A stretch of 64,000 nt of DNA from Levilactobacillus senmaizukei DSM 21775 = NBRC 103853 (GTDB taxonomy: Bacteria > Bacillota > Bacilli > Lactobacillales > Lactobacillaceae), in assembly GCF_001592085.1 (NCBI RefSeq), contig NZ_BCWD01000001.1, positions 62,001 through 126,000 of the forward strand, written 5' to 3'. The notes under the pieces were generated by a model. It was not told where the DNA came from. It saw nothing but the letters and a program-made list of their open reading frames with translations, and did not search any database. Within the stretch, counting starts at the first letter, position 1. Every line of letters starts with the position of its first letter. Position numbers and translations under genes: made by a program. This document shows, piece after piece, positions 1 through 22,984 of this stretch.

Positions 1-90
1 AACATCCGTTTTGGGCAGACTCGCCTTTAAAAACTGTTGGGTACTCGAGTCTGCTAGCTCTGGATGGGATACTAAAACCAAGGTGGTCAT
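1..90 (-). CDS. NAD(P)H-dependent flavodoxin-like oxidoreductase, N-terminus only
   Basis: Only the first 30 codons lie in the window; the gene runs off the left edge. The start is the ATG at 88-90, preceded by GAGGAG about 8 bases upstream. The N-terminus (MTTLVLVSHPELADSSTQQ) has the short beta strand followed by HP and a serine-rich phosphate loop, as in flavodoxin_2 / Kef-type quinone reductases, which reduce quinones or FMN-bound substrates with NAD(P)H in the cytoplasm. Family assignment rests on this loop only. It could equally be a general-stress-protein-14 type reductase. Confidence 0.6.
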   Translation of the reverse strand, partial: MTTLVLVSHPELADSSTQQFLKASLPKTDV

Positions 91-4665: not shown

Positions 4666-4701
4666 CAAAAAAGCCACCGACACACCGTCGATGGCTTTTT
4701 T
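4666..4701. terminator. Terminator after the cold-shock gene
   Basis: AAAAAGCCATCGACGG pairs with CGTCGGTGGCTTTTTT in minus-strand reading. It has A and T tracts on both sides and could act in both directions. Confidence 0.85.
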
Positions 4702-4725
4702 AAACTCGATTTAGGCTAATGTAAA

Positions 4726-4929
4726 TTAGTCGACAACCGAAACGTTAGCAGCTTGTGGGCCACGGTCGCCTTGTTCTACATCAAGGGATACGTGTTGGCC
4801 TTCTTCAAGAGTCTTGAAGCCTTCACTGTTGATAGCAGAGAAGTGAACGAAAACGTCTGAGCCGTTTTCCAAAGTGATGAAGCCGTAACCTTTATCAGCG
4901 TTGAACCATTTAACAGTACCTTGTTCCAT
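4726..4929 (-). CDS. csp: Cold-shock protein, CspA family
   Basis: A 67-aa single cold-shock domain, a cytoplasmic single-strand nucleic-acid chaperone that melts mRNA structure at low temperature and during stress. RNP1 is KGYGFITLE and RNP2 is VFVHFSAI; the N-terminus [17 protein letters not shown] and the C-terminus [11 protein letters not shown] are typical. The start has GGAGG 10 bases upstream. The promoter at 5051-5079 gives a leader of more than 110 nt, as usual for csp genes whose leaders fold in a temperature-dependent way. Confidence 0.95.
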
Positions 4930-5050
4930 AAGAATGAAACCTCCGTGCGCATAGCGCAATAATATTTGCATTTGAAAGCTGGGGTCAAAGGAGCCATTCT
5001 TAAAGAACGTCGAGCCTTTAAAACTTCCGAACCATAAATACATTATCCAT

Positions 5051-17570: not shown

Positions 17571-17842
17571 AAACAAAAAGTCCGCTCCTAAATTAATAGA
17601 AACGAACTTTGTCGTGGTACCATTCTAATTCGAGTCAGGCATAGACTAATGCCGGCTCCTCATTAACACTCGCCAACTTGCGCCTTGGAGTGCGTGCACG
17701 ATAATGAGTGCCAAGCATTACCACCTCATCAAATGACTCAGTGATACCAATTAATTTTCAGGCCATCTTCACCTCGCCGTGGGTTACTCGCTTTCAGCCA
17801 AACACGAGCTCTCTTTGAACCATTGACGTGGTTACTCTCCTG
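17571..17842 (-). promoter_or_regulatory. T-box leader specific for methionine (tRNA-Met sensor)
   Basis: The minus strand from 17842 carries a T-box leader. Stem I is closed by CAGG (17839-17842) with CCTG (17759-17762). It has the AGAGTA loop-E segment, and the specifier codon ATG at 17764-17766 lies in GAAGATGGCC. The antiterminator bulge is ATGGTACCACGAC (17613-17625). The terminator pairs AAAGTTCG (17603-17610) with CGGACTTTTT (17575-17584). Uncharged tRNA-Met would promote read-through into metQ. Confidence 0.9.
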
Positions 17843-18013
17843 ATCACATTGTTTTCAATCGCTTAAGTTACAAGTAGTCTAATGCAGTTCTAATTAAGTG
17901 TCAAGCACAAATCTCAAAAAAGTCACTAATTAGCGCCGGAACTACGGCAATCTACTATATATGTTCACTTGAAATGAATTTATTAACAAAAGATTTTCTA
18001 ACCTAAATTTCAC

Positions 18014-18681: not shown

Positions 18682-20322
18682 TTATTGAATATAAGCGTAC
18701 TTGTAACTCCATTGCGTACCAGCCGTGTTGTGAATGATGCCCTTCACGGTGTTCCGCTGGAGATAGGCATAGTTAGCCTGATACAACGGCGTAAAGCTTT
18801 GCGTCTTGTTCAGCATCTTAGCCGCCTTAATCATATCCTGCCAACGAACCTCTGGCTGACCGGCATCTTGGTTTTGGGCCTTATCAATCAATTCGTCATA
18901 TTCTTTGTTGGACCACTTGCCGTAGTTCAGAGAATTTGAGCTCACCGGAATTTGTAGGAAGGAAATTGGGTCGTTGAAATCAGCTCCCCAGTGTGACAGG
19001 TACAGGTCAAAGTCACCACTCGTGGAACGCGATTGGGCGACGGAAGCCGGCACGTTTTGAATCTTCAAGTTAAAGCCCTTGAGATTATCTTCCAGGGCAC
19101 TCTTCAAATATTGCGTGACGGTGCTGGCTGCAACGTCGTCGTTACCGGCCATAATGTTCAAGTCTACCTTCTTGACACCTAATTCTTTCAACCCCGCGGC
19201 CCACTTTTTCTTGGCTAAACTTGGGTTGTACGTCGTTGAGTCCTTCACCGTCTGTTGCTTGGCGAAATCTTCACCCGTCTTGGGATCCTTAGCCAGACCG
19301 CTGGCAACGAAACCGGTTGGTGTCACGGAACCATCACCTAAGACCTTCTCCGTCAATTGACCTCGATTAATCGACAGTGCAATTGCTTGCCGAATATTTT
19401 GATTGCTCATGATCCGCCGCTTAGCCTTGTCGGCATCTTGGAAGTTATACTTCAGATGAATCACGATGGAGTATGGATATTCCTTAAAGGCCTTATCGTT
19501 CTTGTAATTCTTAACCTGTTCGTTGGTCAGGTTAGCAAAATCGAGCTTGTTGTTTTGATAGAGGCTCAGACCCGTCTGCGGGTTCGTGACAACTTGGAAG
19601 TTAACCTTGTTCAGCTTAACCACCTGTTTATCCCAGTAGTGATTATTCTTAACGAATGACCACGTGTTACCGGTCCCACTCCAGTTTGAGATCTTAAATG
19701 GCCCACTGTAGACCATGTATTCGGACTTGGTCGCGTACTTCTTGCCGTATTTGTTGACCACTTTTTCATTTTGTGGGGCAAACAGCGGATAGGCCATCAA
19801 AATTTTAAAGTAGGCGATTGGCTTATCCAGCTTGACCACGACCGTCTGAGCATTCTTCGCATGAATCCCAATCGTTTCTGGCTGAGCCTTTCCGGCAATA
19901 ATCTGGTCCCCGTTCTTAATCCCGGAGAACATATTTCGGTAAGAGGACTTGGTGGATGGCGTCAATGTCCGGCGCCAAGAGTAAACAAAGTCTTGGGCGG
20001 TAATCTTGTCACCGTTGCTCCACTTCGCATTGTCACGAATATGGAACGTCCAGGTCTTTTGGTCCTTGGATTCCTTAACCGAGTCGGCCAACCCTGGGGC
20101 GACCTTGCCGTTCTTACCCAAACGATAGAAGCCCTCGAACACATTCCCAGTCTGACCATAACCAGTGGCCTTGGCAAGGTCAATCGTATCGAGTTGAGCC
20201 GTTGCTGGTAGGCGCAAGACCTGCGAAGGCTTTGACGATGTGGCTGAGTTACCACATGCGGCGAGACTCAAACTCACCGTGATTAATGCAGCAATCAAGC
20301 CAATTCCTGTCCATTTTTTCAT
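18682..20322 (-). CDS. OppA-like substrate-binding lipoprotein under a Cys-leader
   Basis: A 546-aa family-5 solute-binding lipoprotein, lipobox LAAC (Cys23), with the signature NGDKITAQDFVYSWRRTLTP (about 103-122). It captures peptides outside the membrane for an ABC importer encoded elsewhere. What sets it apart is upstream: a 34-codon ORF with clustered cysteine codons and a terminator stem lie between promoter and gene, so expression probably rises when cysteine is scarce. That suggests cystine, cysteine-containing peptides or glutathione as ligand, by analogy with OppA-like cysteine-transport proteins such as Listeria CtaP. The ligand is inference. RBS GGGAGC lies close to the start. Confidence 0.88.
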   Translation of the reverse strand: MKKWTGIGLIAALITVSLSLAACGNSATSSKPSQVLRLPATAQLDTIDLAKATGYGQTGNVFEGFYRLGKNGKVAPGLADSVKESKDQKTWTFHIRDNAKWSNGDKITAQDFVYSWRRTLTPSTKSSYRNMFSGIKNGDQIIAGKAQPETIGIHAKNAQTVVVKLDKPIAYFKILMAYPLFAPQNEKVVNKYGKKYATKSEYMVYSGPFKISNWSGTGNTWSFVKNNHYWDKQVVKLNKVNFQVVTNPQTGLSLYQNNKLDFANLTNEQVKNYKNDKAFKEYPYSIVIHLKYNFQDADKAKRRIMSNQNIRQAIALSINRGQLTEKVLGDGSVTPTGFVASGLAKDPKTGEDFAKQQTVKDSTTYNPSLAKKKWAAGLKELGVKKVDLNIMAGNDDVAASTVTQYLKSALEDNLKGFNLKIQNVPASVAQSRSTSGDFDLYLSHWGADFNDPISFLQIPVSSNSLNYGKWSNKEYDELIDKAQNQDAGQPEVRWQDMIKAAKMLNKTQSFTPLYQANYAYLQRNTVKGIIHNTAGTQWSYKYAYIQ

Positions 20323-20384
20323 AAAATAATTGCTCCCTTTTCCTCATGAATTTATTGGCGTGCAATCCCTAACACACTTGAAGC

Positions 20385-20432
20385 CATAAAAAACGGGTTA
20401 CCTCTCACTCGCATCGTGAAAGGTAACCCGTT
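20385..20432 (-). terminator. Attenuator terminator between Cys-leader and the OppA-like gene
   Basis: On the minus strand AACGGGTTACCT pairs perfectly with AGGTAACCCGTT and is followed by TTTTTTAT. It lies 36 bases after the leader ORF stop and 60 bases before the structural gene, the place of an attenuation terminator. A second small hairpin (GACGACC/GGTCGTC, 20438-20456) sits between leader stop and terminator. Confidence 0.85.
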
Positions 20433-20467
20433 ACACTGACGACCGGAACGGTCGTCGCTATGTAATG

Positions 20468-20572
20468 CTACTGGTTAGCCGAAAAATCACGATTTAGAGC
20501 AACGCAAAGAGACACGTTACATACGCAACATGCGGCATTCAATACTTCAACTCGGCCTGCGTTCATCATCAT
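20468..20572 (-). CDS. Cysteine-rich leader peptide, 34 aa
   Basis: ATGATGATG start with AAGGAGGG 9 bases upstream; the peptide has four cysteines in NAACCVCNVSLC (residues 12-23) out of 34 residues, ending in a TAG. Cysteine is rare in bacterial proteins, so the cluster is a codon test for charged tRNA-Cys. An 11-base sequence at the start codon (20571-20581) is perfectly complementary to 20483-20493 near the end of the ORF, so translation and folding of the leader are linked. Ribosome stalling at the Cys codons would be expected to alter formation of the downstream terminator. Confidence 0.8.
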   Translation of the reverse strand: MMMNAGRVEVLNAACCVCNVSLCVALNRDFSANQ

Positions 20573-20622
20573 CGTGATTTTCCCTCCTTACTTTTAATAA
20601 CTAATTGGATTGCACAAGACTA

Positions 20623-20651
20623 AAGTTACCGCACTTTGAATTGATTGTCAA
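20623..20651 (-). promoter_or_regulatory. Promoter of the Cys-leader/OppA-like transcript
   Basis: TTGACA (20646-20651, minus strand) and TAACTT (20623-20628) with 17-base spacing. Its start would be 45 or so bases before the leader ATG. Confidence 0.7.
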
Positions 20652-20734
20652 AAGATATTACTTCATGGGTAACAACCACCTGTCGAAAACGGTATACTAA
20701 AGATATTCTAAGAGAAAAGAAAGGATTTGAACGT

Positions 20735-22984
20735 ATGGACATCGAACGCACGCTTGCCGCACTGACATTGCCAGAAAAAGCTGCACTGGTCACCGGACAC
20801 AATGGTTGGTTTACCGCCGCCATAGAACGCCTAGGACTTCCGGCATTAATGATGACCGATGGCCCTTCTGGGCTCCGTAAGCAAGTCACCTCCTCCACCG
20901 ACTTTAACGATTCCGTGAAGGCCATTGCCTACCCTTCATCGGCGCTCAGCGCTAGCACTTGGAATGAAGATTTGATGCGCCAACTAGGTGAACATTTAGG
21001 GACCGAGGCCCGCGCAGAACAAGTCAGTCTGTTATTGGGACCCGGGGTCAATTTAAAGCGTTCACCCCTTGGCGGTCGCAACTTTGAGTATCTAGCCGAA
21101 GATCCGCTGGTCGCTGGTAAGCTTGCCAGTGCCTACGTTCAAGGCGTTCAATCCCAACACGTCGGCGTCGCCGTCAAGCACTTCGCCGCCAACAACCGCG
21201 AGAATCAACGCTTCACCGCCTCAAGTGACATGTCACCACGGGCACTCCGAGAACTCTATCTCCGTACCTTCGAAATCATTGTGAAGGCGGCATTCCCCGC
21301 CACGATGATGACCTCTTATAACAAGATTAACGGCGTGCTAAATTCTCAAAATAAGCACCTGTTACGTGAAATTCTGCGCGATGAATGGGGTTACCATGGC
21401 GCCGTTATGTCCGATTGGGGGGCCGTTGCCAACCATCCCCAGTCCTTACGCGCTGGGTTAGACCTGGAAATGCCTGGTAAGGGACAGGCGTCAATCGACG
21501 AAATTATCCGTGCCGTGGAAACCGGTGAATTGGATGAGGGAACCCTCAATAAATCCATTCGTCATCTGCTGCACGTCATTCAGGACTGGGCACCAGCGGC
21601 CGAAGCTAGCACCTACGACCATGCCGCGCACCATGCCTTTGCTCGGCAGCTCGCCGACGATGGCATCGTATTACTCAAGAACCATCATGACGAGTTACCC
21701 CTTGAACCAGGCAAGTCCGGTCAGGTTGTCATTATCGGTGAGCTGGCGGAACATCCCCGTTACCAAGGTGCCGGGAGTTCACATGTCAATCCCACGACCC
21801 TCAAGACGCCCTTGGAAGCTCTGGCTGCCAGTGGTCTGAAGGCTAATTACTACCCCGGTTACCGCCTGGACGAAGACGAGACCGATGAACACCTGGCCGA
21901 CGCCGCGCTAGCCGCGGCACGGGCCGCTGATCACGTCATCGTTTTCGCCGGTTACCCGGCTGCCAGTGAGTCCGAGGGCTTCGATAAAAATTCCCTGATG
22001 TTGCCTGAAAATCAAACTGACCTGATTGGAAGCTTAGCGAAGGCCAACGTTCATACGACCGTGGTCTTACAAAACGGTTCGGCGGTTGAAATGCCGTGGG
22101 TTCACTCGGTCGACGCGATCGTTGAAACCTATCTAGCTGGTGAGGCGGTCGGTGAAGCGACTTGGGATATTATCACCGGTAAGGTCAATCCATCCGGTCA
22201 CTTGACCGAAACCTTCCCATTACGCTTGACGGATACGCCAATGGCCCCCACCTTTGGCCAAGATCCACATCACGAGTACTATACGGAAGGAATCTTCATG
22301 GGTTATCGCTATTACGACACCCACGAAATGCACGTCTTATTCCCATTTGGTCACGGTCTCAGTTACACCACCTTCGAATATACTCAGATGATTATTACCA
22401 AGAATGAACACGGCGCAACGATTACCTTTAACGTCACCAACACTGGTGACCGTGCTGGTCAAGCGGTTCCCCAACTCTACGTTGCCAACCATGCAACCCA
22501 CGCCCCCATGCCTACCAAGGAATTGCGGGCGTTTACCAAGGTCAATCTGGCCCCGAATGAAACCAAGCAAGTCATCCTCAAGCTCAATCGCCGCGACTTT
22601 AGCTGGTGGTGTGAACCTAAGCAACGGTGGCAAGCCGACTCTGGTGACTACGAGATTATGATCGGTGACTCTTCACGAGACATGCGCTTACAAACCAAGC
22701 TGACGATGGACTTCAAGAACTCTCCTGCGCCGGTAACTGAAGAGACGTACCTCAGTCGAATCGTGGCGGATGACCAACTTCGCGAATTATTCCTCGAGAC
22801 CGTCATCGCCCCCCTGCAAGCCAACGAGGACACACCATCCATGTTGACCGCGACCGATCAGGATGGCCAACTCTTGGCCTTACAAAACCGGCTATTTCTG
22901 AACATGCCGTTACGAGCAACCGTTTCACTCGGTACACCCGCGGACCTCATTAACAATTTCATTGCGGCGGCTAACCAACATTAG
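20735..22984 (+). CDS. Glycoside hydrolase family 3 beta-glucosidase/xylosidase-type enzyme
   Basis: A 749-aa cytoplasmic GH3 enzyme that releases terminal beta-linked sugars from glycosides. The N-terminal barrel has GWFTAAIERLGLPALMMTDGPSGLR, KHFAANN and the nucleophile Asp in VMSDWGAV (about 230). The second domain begins about 320 and has the GAGSSHVNP loop and YPAASESEGFDK. The C-terminal fibronectin-like domain starts about 570 (ELRAFTKVNLAPNETKQV). There is no signal peptide. I start at the ATG 20735 with AAAGGA; the longer upstream ORF has no ribosome site. It is divergent from the Cys-leader operon. Confidence 0.9.
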   Translation: MDIERTLAALTLPEKAALVTGHNGWFTAAIERLGLPALMMTDGPSGLRKQVTSSTDFNDSVKAIAYPSSALSASTWNEDLMRQLGEHLGTEARAEQVSLLLGPGVNLKRSPLGGRNFEYLAEDPLVAGKLASAYVQGVQSQHVGVAVKHFAANNRENQRFTASSDMSPRALRELYLRTFEIIVKAAFPATMMTSYNKINGVLNSQNKHLLREILRDEWGYHGAVMSDWGAVANHPQSLRAGLDLEMPGKGQASIDEIIRAVETGELDEGTLNKSIRHLLHVIQDWAPAAEASTYDHAAHHAFARQLADDGIVLLKNHHDELPLEPGKSGQVVIIGELAEHPRYQGAGSSHVNPTTLKTPLEALAASGLKANYYPGYRLDEDETDEHLADAALAAARAADHVIVFAGYPAASESEGFDKNSLMLPENQTDLIGSLAKANVHTTVVLQNGSAVEMPWVHSVDAIVETYLAGEAVGEATWDIITGKVNPSGHLTETFPLRLTDTPMAPTFGQDPHHEYYTEGIFMGYRYYDTHEMHVLFPFGHGLSYTTFEYTQMIITKNEHGATITFNVTNTGDRAGQAVPQLYVANHATHAPMPTKELRAFTKVNLAPNETKQVILKLNRRDFSWWCEPKQRWQADSGDYEIMIGDSSRDMRLQTKLTMDFKNSPAPVTEETYLSRIVADDQLRELFLETVIAPLQANEDTPSMLTATDQDGQLLALQNRLFLNMPLRATVSLGTPADLINNFIAAANQH

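Follow-up and report, generated by a model that had tools for sequence, protein, structure and literature searches.

A candidate cysteine-responsive leader with a start-site lock before an OppA-like lipoprotein gene in Levilactobacillus and related Lactobacillaceae

Most of the control by which genes of Firmicutes respond to amino acid supply is attributed to T-boxes. Their predominance is stated for the aminoacyl-tRNA synthetase genes of Firmicutes (PMC1262725). Which signal is read, and by which means, when a gene for a peptide-binding lipoprotein is preceded by a short ORF with clustered Cys codons and a terminator? Such an arrangement is found in the window, i.e. the whole stretch of 64,000 nucleotides of Levilactobacillus senmaizukei analysed here, where it extends on the minus strand from the promoter to the oppA start (20651-20323). 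Its features are:

20623-20651, minus strand: promoter TTGACA-17-TAACTT, read from the sequence
20607-20615, minus strand: 5' strand of a clamp, GTGCAATCC, near the likely transcription start, from pairing in the 35-row alignment
20583-20587, minus strand: Shine-Dalgarno sequence (SD) GGAGG of the leader ORF, read from the sequence
20571-20583, minus strand: arm 1, GGAAAATCACGAT, spanning the end of the SD and the start codon, forming a helix with arm 2
20468-20572, minus strand: leader ORF of 34 codons plus stop, peptide MMMNAGRVEVLNAACCVCNVSLCVALNRDFSANQ, from sequence and genus conservation
20504-20530, minus strand: Cys codons 15, 16, 18 and 23 (TGT TGC. TGT .... TGC), from conservation of ACCxCN
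20481-20493, minus strand: arm 2, ATCGTGATTTTTC, late in the ORF, with arm 1 or the terminator 5' arm as alternative partners
20413-20493, minus strand: predicted antiterminator ATCGTGA...TCACGAT with apical hairpin 20456-20438, from folding with masked ribosomes
20392-20432, minus strand: intrinsic terminator, with six T at 20388-20393, from sequence and covariation
20360-20368, minus strand: 3' strand of the clamp, GGATTGCAC, between terminator and oppA SD, complementary to the 5' strand
18682-20322, minus strand: oppA, OppA-like substrate-binding lipoprotein (SBP_bac_5), the gene regulated in the proposed mechanism

The first-pass annotation had described a leader ORF with its own strong SD and the pattern CC.C....C, a terminator with T6 behind it and then the OppA-like gene; the sequence agrees, and the coordinates are correct. 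The gene upstream is divergent, so that the terminator is part of oppA's own leader. The folding energy of the 226-nt leader lies 7.2 sd below that of 200 dinucleotide shuffles, none of which (0/200) is equally low. The leader very probably acts by ribosome-mediated transcription attenuation, sensing charged tRNA-Cys and controlling the OppA-like lipoprotein.

Scans of the window and of 20 loci bear out the further claim that the arrangement belongs to no established Rfam family. No Rfam 15 family was found at curated score over the leader, either in the window scan or in 20280-20760 at E<=5, where the single match is mir-299 on the plus strand (16.8 bits, 67 required); the 20 loci gave one match, an FMN riboswitch in L117, away from the leader. 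The T-box model RF00230 has no match in 20280-20760 at E<=5, nor does any match in the window attain its gathering score. Another part of the window (4667-5028, minus strand) has a cspA thermoregulator match barely above the cut-off (82 vs 78 bits). The leader peptide has no NCBIfam match at E<=1, and six small peptides likewise gave nothing.

A profile of seven leader peptides matches all 35 Levilactobacillus genomes searched, and in each of them an ORF with ACCxCN and four or five Cys codons lies directly before the corresponding oppA, whose product is 77-100% identical to the window's OppA over the aligned part. A promoter of the form TTGACA-16..18-T[AT]NNNT is present within 120 nt in 35/35 of these leaders. 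Nineteen related loci were found by name (17 Levilactobacillus, one Lactobacillus sp. and one metagenome bin), with the closest leader in L. tangyuanensis (88%). The single leader peptide, searched against 201 genomes of the family at E<=10, has matches in 29, of which 18 loci were read; only the seven Levilactobacillus (the own genome included) are convincing among the 29, and the matches outside the genus were discarded. Fifteen weaker matches among those listed for the genus profile (L093-L107) are, by eye, Cys-containing frames and not leaders, and no second leader copy was seen among these 15.

The frame behind ACCxCN is altered by one or two extra bases in 15 of the 35 genus leaders, which read NVCSLRC, NVCFLRC, NVCLFALR etc., and the remaining 20 read NVSFC, NVLVC etc. 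A Cys codon is present after ACCxCN in every genus leader, in either frame; the fourth Cys codon is TGT in 9 leaders and TGC in 26, a synonymous variation, and the ORF is 28-37 codons long. Selection appears, from these alignments, to act on the Cys codons and the RNA pairing, rather than on the C-terminal peptide. The N-terminus is partly conserved (consensus MMxNxxQxQM, seven sequences), a conservation of which Cys sensing gives no account.

Outside the genus, OppA homologues were ranked among 151 genomes of the family, and the best per genome above 520 bits gave 44 candidate orthologues. In a tree of 70 proteins (the 44 candidates, six of the 35 Levilactobacillus OppA and 20 paralogues), 43 candidates and the six Levilactobacillus proteins form one clade with support 100/100, apart from all 20 paralogues; the remaining candidate, G031, is placed among the paralogues and was dropped before counting. 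An ORF preceded by an SD and with at least three Cys in nine codons occurs within 400 nt before 33 of the 43 orthologues (11 genera). The same criterion is satisfied before one of 40 paralogues, lower-scoring homologues hand-picked from the same ranked search, and in 33 of 860 letter-shuffled upstream regions; with ATG starts only, the counts are 30/43 for orthologues and 0/40 for paralogues. The lone paralogue match, G059b, shows on reading no evident leader and was left in the count. A Fisher test of these counts takes no account of kinship. The first-pass annotation had proposed a search for such ORFs before OppA-like genes of related lactobacilli and had named homologues without conserved Cys codons as evidence against its reading; the Cys codons are kept in 35/35 genus leaders, and the Cys-rich ORF recurs before 33/43 orthologues beyond.

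Leaders of other genera, e.g. MSLKQFCCCQNCL..., MQISASQMMMCCPCCEPDN..., MSKFTNKLSGCCQCCCG... and MLMQCCC, range from 7 aa (the last of these) to 38 aa (n=32) and are, by eye, little alike between genera beyond the Cys clusters. In an order-wide OppA search (E<=1e-165), 10 of 246 genomes had a homologue, each of them a member of Lactobacillaceae. Between most genera the genes next to oppA are not the same, whereas the leader or T-box is retained (16 loci, eight genera), and no sulfur gene was recognised by eye next to oppA in these 16 loci, with one ORF considered on each side. Only two Cys are present in the leader of G078. L118, L122, L136 and L164 (g20 and g5) each have, close before oppA, another small ORF with Cys codons (MKKACCCRMLRGSI, MAKSCCCWMMTKN, MESECNCKRISDT and MESECSDCRVFPS), which is perhaps a second control stage. 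In L173 (G080) a Cys-rich ORF overlaps the oppA start codon, which suggests that translation is controlled there instead of termination. L123 (G088) has a Cys-rich frame with SD, and ACG, not ATG, at the expected start.

A T-box precedes four orthologues, of which three belong to g30 and one to g33. One of these scores above the cut-off of 93 bits (L132, 97.0) and three below it (L128, 84.7; L125, 77.1; L126, 71.9). The specifier register (GAA-N-codon) was calibrated on T-boxes of the own genome before genes which we take, by recognition of their sequence, to be tyrS, valS and leuS. A Cys specificity was at first supposed for the four T-boxes before oppA; read in the calibrated register, each has AUG (Met). 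Read in this way, a Met T-box on orthologues is an independent route pointing to sulfur amino acids. Neither leader nor T-box was found before five of the 43 orthologues (G146 and four of g25). In g30 (L125, L126, L128) the region between T-box and oppA holds a small ORF that is similar in the three genomes and has WRGSSRG towards its end; the two copies compared with NCBIfam gave no match. Another OppA-like lipoprotein gene (L142, own genome, contig C5) stands behind a T-box with specifier AUC (Ile) in the calibrated register. In the window itself, a T-box before metQNP (17595-17855, minus strand) has the specifier AUG and 84.4 bits, below the gathering score of 93. With a Met T-box before metQNP close to the Cys leader before oppA, two neighbouring sulfur amino acid loci would use two different sensors. 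T-boxes with ATG specifier before transporter genes are described in a study of L. paracasei (PMC6004538).

These comparisons also bear on what the ribosome responds to. Arrest by the nascent peptide is an improbable alternative: a Cys-rich peptide, perhaps metal- or thiol-bound in or near the exit tunnel, would stall the ribosome and cause antitermination. The invariance of ACCxCN in 35/35 genus leaders and the partly conserved preceding part are in its favour, and Cys clusters could bind metal. However, the residues around Cys vary between genera, in leaders of 7 to 38 aa, the frame changes within the genus right behind the Cys cluster, and the Met T-box on other orthologues suits amino acid supply better than metal. 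A slow codon is indistinguishable from a starved one in sequence alone, and the Cys codons could merely slow the ribosome, the leader reading any slowing of translation and not cysteine; such a general rate sensor is very unlikely, since Cys clusters recur across 12 genera (Cys codons alone having been examined for enrichment) and other orthologues carry the Met T-box, an amino acid-specific device.

The leader contains an exact complementarity of AAAATCACGAT (20581-20571, over the leader start codon) with ATCGTGATTTT (20493-20483) on the minus strand. This 11-base pairing, which had been noted before, is real and forms the core of the arm 1-arm 2 helix; rather than acting as the antiterminator, it would lock the start site of the leader itself, as the helix covers the edge of the leader SD and the start codon. 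The helix has 13 pairs, with 87.8% of alignment cells paired and changes on both sides in 6/13 pairs (rows L090 and L091, misaligned in arm 1, are counted unchanged). In the terminator, both-side changes affect 8/16 pairs of the 35-row alignment, so that the covariation sought for the 11-base pairing and for the terminator is seen as compensatory changes in both. In the assembled structure 92.3% of cells pair, compared with 33-49% for partners slid by 1-3 columns (35-row alignment A2), a comparison favoured by drawing the structure from one of the 35 rows. Aligned sequences show that the Cys-codon leader is conserved, as are the terminator and the lock on the start site. That the ORF encodes a small Cys-rich protein with a function of its own, the terminator being mere punctuation, is hardly credible: a good SD and the retention of the ORF in 35/35 genomes would fit it, but the frame changes after the cluster, the length varies over 28-37 codons within the genus, no NCBIfam family matches at E<=1 and compensatory pairing spans the ORF.

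The lenient terminator detector, run without shuffle control, has a match in 67/67 leaders, and the terminator claims rest on other evidence (the window terminator and covariation). G205 (L076), in which the terminator is deleted and leader, arms and 5' clamp are still there, is a natural test of attenuation loss; the detector's match in G205 is not the deleted terminator, and G205 was retained in the counts of complementarity and ribosome-masked folding. A hairpin formed over the Cys codons has 98% of its cells paired in the genus, where it is nearly invariant, and its local folding is significant in 20/35 genus leaders and 9/32 others; because of this near-invariance and the limited number of leaders with significant folding it is not claimed as an element.

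The motif TCACGAT in the 5' arm and loop of the terminator is complementary to arm 2, and folding predicts that a competing antiterminator uses arm 2. The long antiterminator is the fold predicted for the nascent leader when one ribosome masks the first Cys codon and another the start. In its seven-pair arm 2-terminator core 89.9% of cells pair, but covariation is weak, the both-side-change count being reached by 266/500 shuffles. In the whole antiterminator 84.3% of cells are paired and 10/29 pairs show both-side changes, a count reached in 13/500 shuffles and in 0/6 slid versions; 81/500 shuffles have at least as many further pair types. Complementarity (p<0.05) of leader SD and late ORF was found in 32/35 genus leaders and 18/32 others (0/4 in genus g24), and that of late ORF and terminator 5' half in 30/35 and 16/32, respectively.

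In the 35 genus leaders, mean pairing of the terminator 5' arm with upstream RNA is 0.47 when free, 0.47 with a stalled ribosome, 0.67 with stalled and initiating ribosomes and 0.47 with a ribosome at the stop codon; relative to this last state, 17/35 leaders gain more than 0.2 with stalled and initiating ribosomes, and one is lower. For 32 leaders of other genera, folded without G088 (no ATG start) and G080 (ORF overlapping oppA) and including G078 (two Cys), the corresponding means are 0.54, 0.61, 0.69 and 0.45, and stalled plus initiating is above stop by more than 0.2 in 18/32 and below it in one. Since stalling alone does not raise antiterminator pairing in the genus folding, the model needs there a second, initiating ribosome. 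The first-pass annotation had proposed attenuation by stalling at Cys codons; leader conservation supports this proposal, but in the Levilactobacillus folding stalling alone fails to free the antiterminator.

In the mechanism proposed here, ample Cys-tRNA would let the ribosome reach the leader stop codon and cover arm 2, whereupon the terminator would form and oppA be off. With scarce Cys-tRNA, the ribosome would stall at codons 15-18 and the next ribosome would sit on the start site; stalled and initiating ribosomes together would keep arm 2 off arm 1, and arm 2 would pair with the terminator 5' arm, giving read-through. If the leader is not translated, arm 1 and arm 2 would pair and hide the leader start, and the terminator would form. 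Read-through would presumably respond to cysteine supply. The leader looks like a switch that would turn a peptide-uptake gene on when cysteine is short, a design apparently shared by a dozen related genera in widely divergent sequence.

The complementarity of the two clamp strands, absent from the first-pass annotation, encloses the leader and the terminator. In the clamp 96.2% of cells are paired and 2/9 pairs have both-side changes; one pair switches from GC to AU in four rows. It is retained in the terminator-less G205 and, by eye, poorly kept in G214, G215 and G218, which are three of the four genomes that have an insert between terminator and oppA. About 100 extra bases lie between leader and oppA in L085, L088, L090 and L091 (G214, G215, G218 and G207), where the distance from leader stop to oppA ATG is 243-265 nt (94-162 elsewhere). 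As its 3' strand lies beyond the terminator, the clamp can form only in read-through RNA, the 5' end of which it may protect in the proposed mechanism; that it does so, or that it affects oppA translation, is a guess. Its sequences are possibly a DNA site with inverted halves.

The lipoprotein might import cysteine-containing peptides or cystine. Among proteins of solved structure, those nearest to it in sequence are 5kzt (a peptide/nickel substrate-binding protein), 6npo (an oligopeptide-binding protein) and PrgZ, which do not decide its ligand. A tentative joint reading, doubtful as a whole, would be a two-stage cysteine switch: the leader's ribosome-binding site would serve as region 1 and the following ribosome would take part in the sensing; only the read-through mRNA would gain the GTGCAATCC-GGATTGCAC clamp, which would stabilise it or set oppA translation; and the second Cys ORF would be a second stage in some genera. 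The switch would go back to the ancestor of an OppA clade within Lactobacillaceae; codons and pairings would be the main things retained, and a Met T-box would have taken its place in two genera.

If true, cysteine would have a leader-peptide attenuator spread over a dozen genera of Lactobacillaceae, and an OppA clade without assigned ligand would gain a testable substrate class. The natural swaps on one gene (Cys leader, Met T-box, neither) would allow the evolution of amino acid sensors to be compared directly, and the frame shifts inside one genus would help to tell codon sensing from peptide sensing.

Attenuation of the trp/his type relies on a short ORF that is translated and holds several codons for one amino acid in a row, on competing pairings and on an intrinsic terminator before the gene. 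The oppA leader is alike in its ORF with a Cys codon run, in its intrinsic terminator and, as far as the predicted antiterminator holds, in its competing pairings; a short ORF with its own SD, a conserved Cys codon run and a terminator between ORF and gene (lost in G205) are all present. In contrast to the trp/his type, arm 1 is here formed by the leader's own SD and start codon, not by the control codons, the gene regulated would be a lone peptide-binding lipoprotein gene and not a biosynthetic operon, and there is an extra clamp at the 5' end.

Among leaders with Cys codons, the uORFC-8-2 motif is described as a Cys-codon uORF before a terminator at cysS of Rhodobacterales (Alphaproteobacteria), read as ribosome-mediated attenuation and defined by two tandem Cys codons, usually codons 14-15, and two prominent stems (PMC8632094). 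The oppA leader shares the Cys-codon ORF before a terminator and is, by that description, set apart by its gene and by its Cys codons 15, 16, 18 and 23. In Actinobacteria, Cys leader peptides are reported before cys/cbs genes, the mycobacterial regions being described as without conserved terminator hairpin (PMC1262725); polycysteine short ORFs are reported from mycobacteria (Canestrari 2020, as cited in PMC13236596), with translation attenuation in M. smegmatis according to PMC13236596. These leaders have Cys codons in the leader ORF, as here, whereas the oppA leader has a terminator. In bacilli, His leader peptides are described at hisS paralogues where other species have a T-box (PMC2965389), i.e. 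a Firmicutes leader peptide is swapped with a T-box on the same gene, as here, but for histidine and at hisS and a paralogue. CtaP of Listeria monocytogenes, a substrate-binding protein with an initial annotation as oligopeptide-binding but linked to the uptake of cysteine (PMC10269559), is a precedent for an OppA-like protein in this role, although CtaP adjoins permease genes. Among the titles and abstract openings of the literature matches listed, no such Cys leader is described for lactobacilli. Cys-codon leaders are known elsewhere, in Rhodobacterales and Actinobacteria; this lactobacillar form before oppA appears, by the matches listed, to be new.
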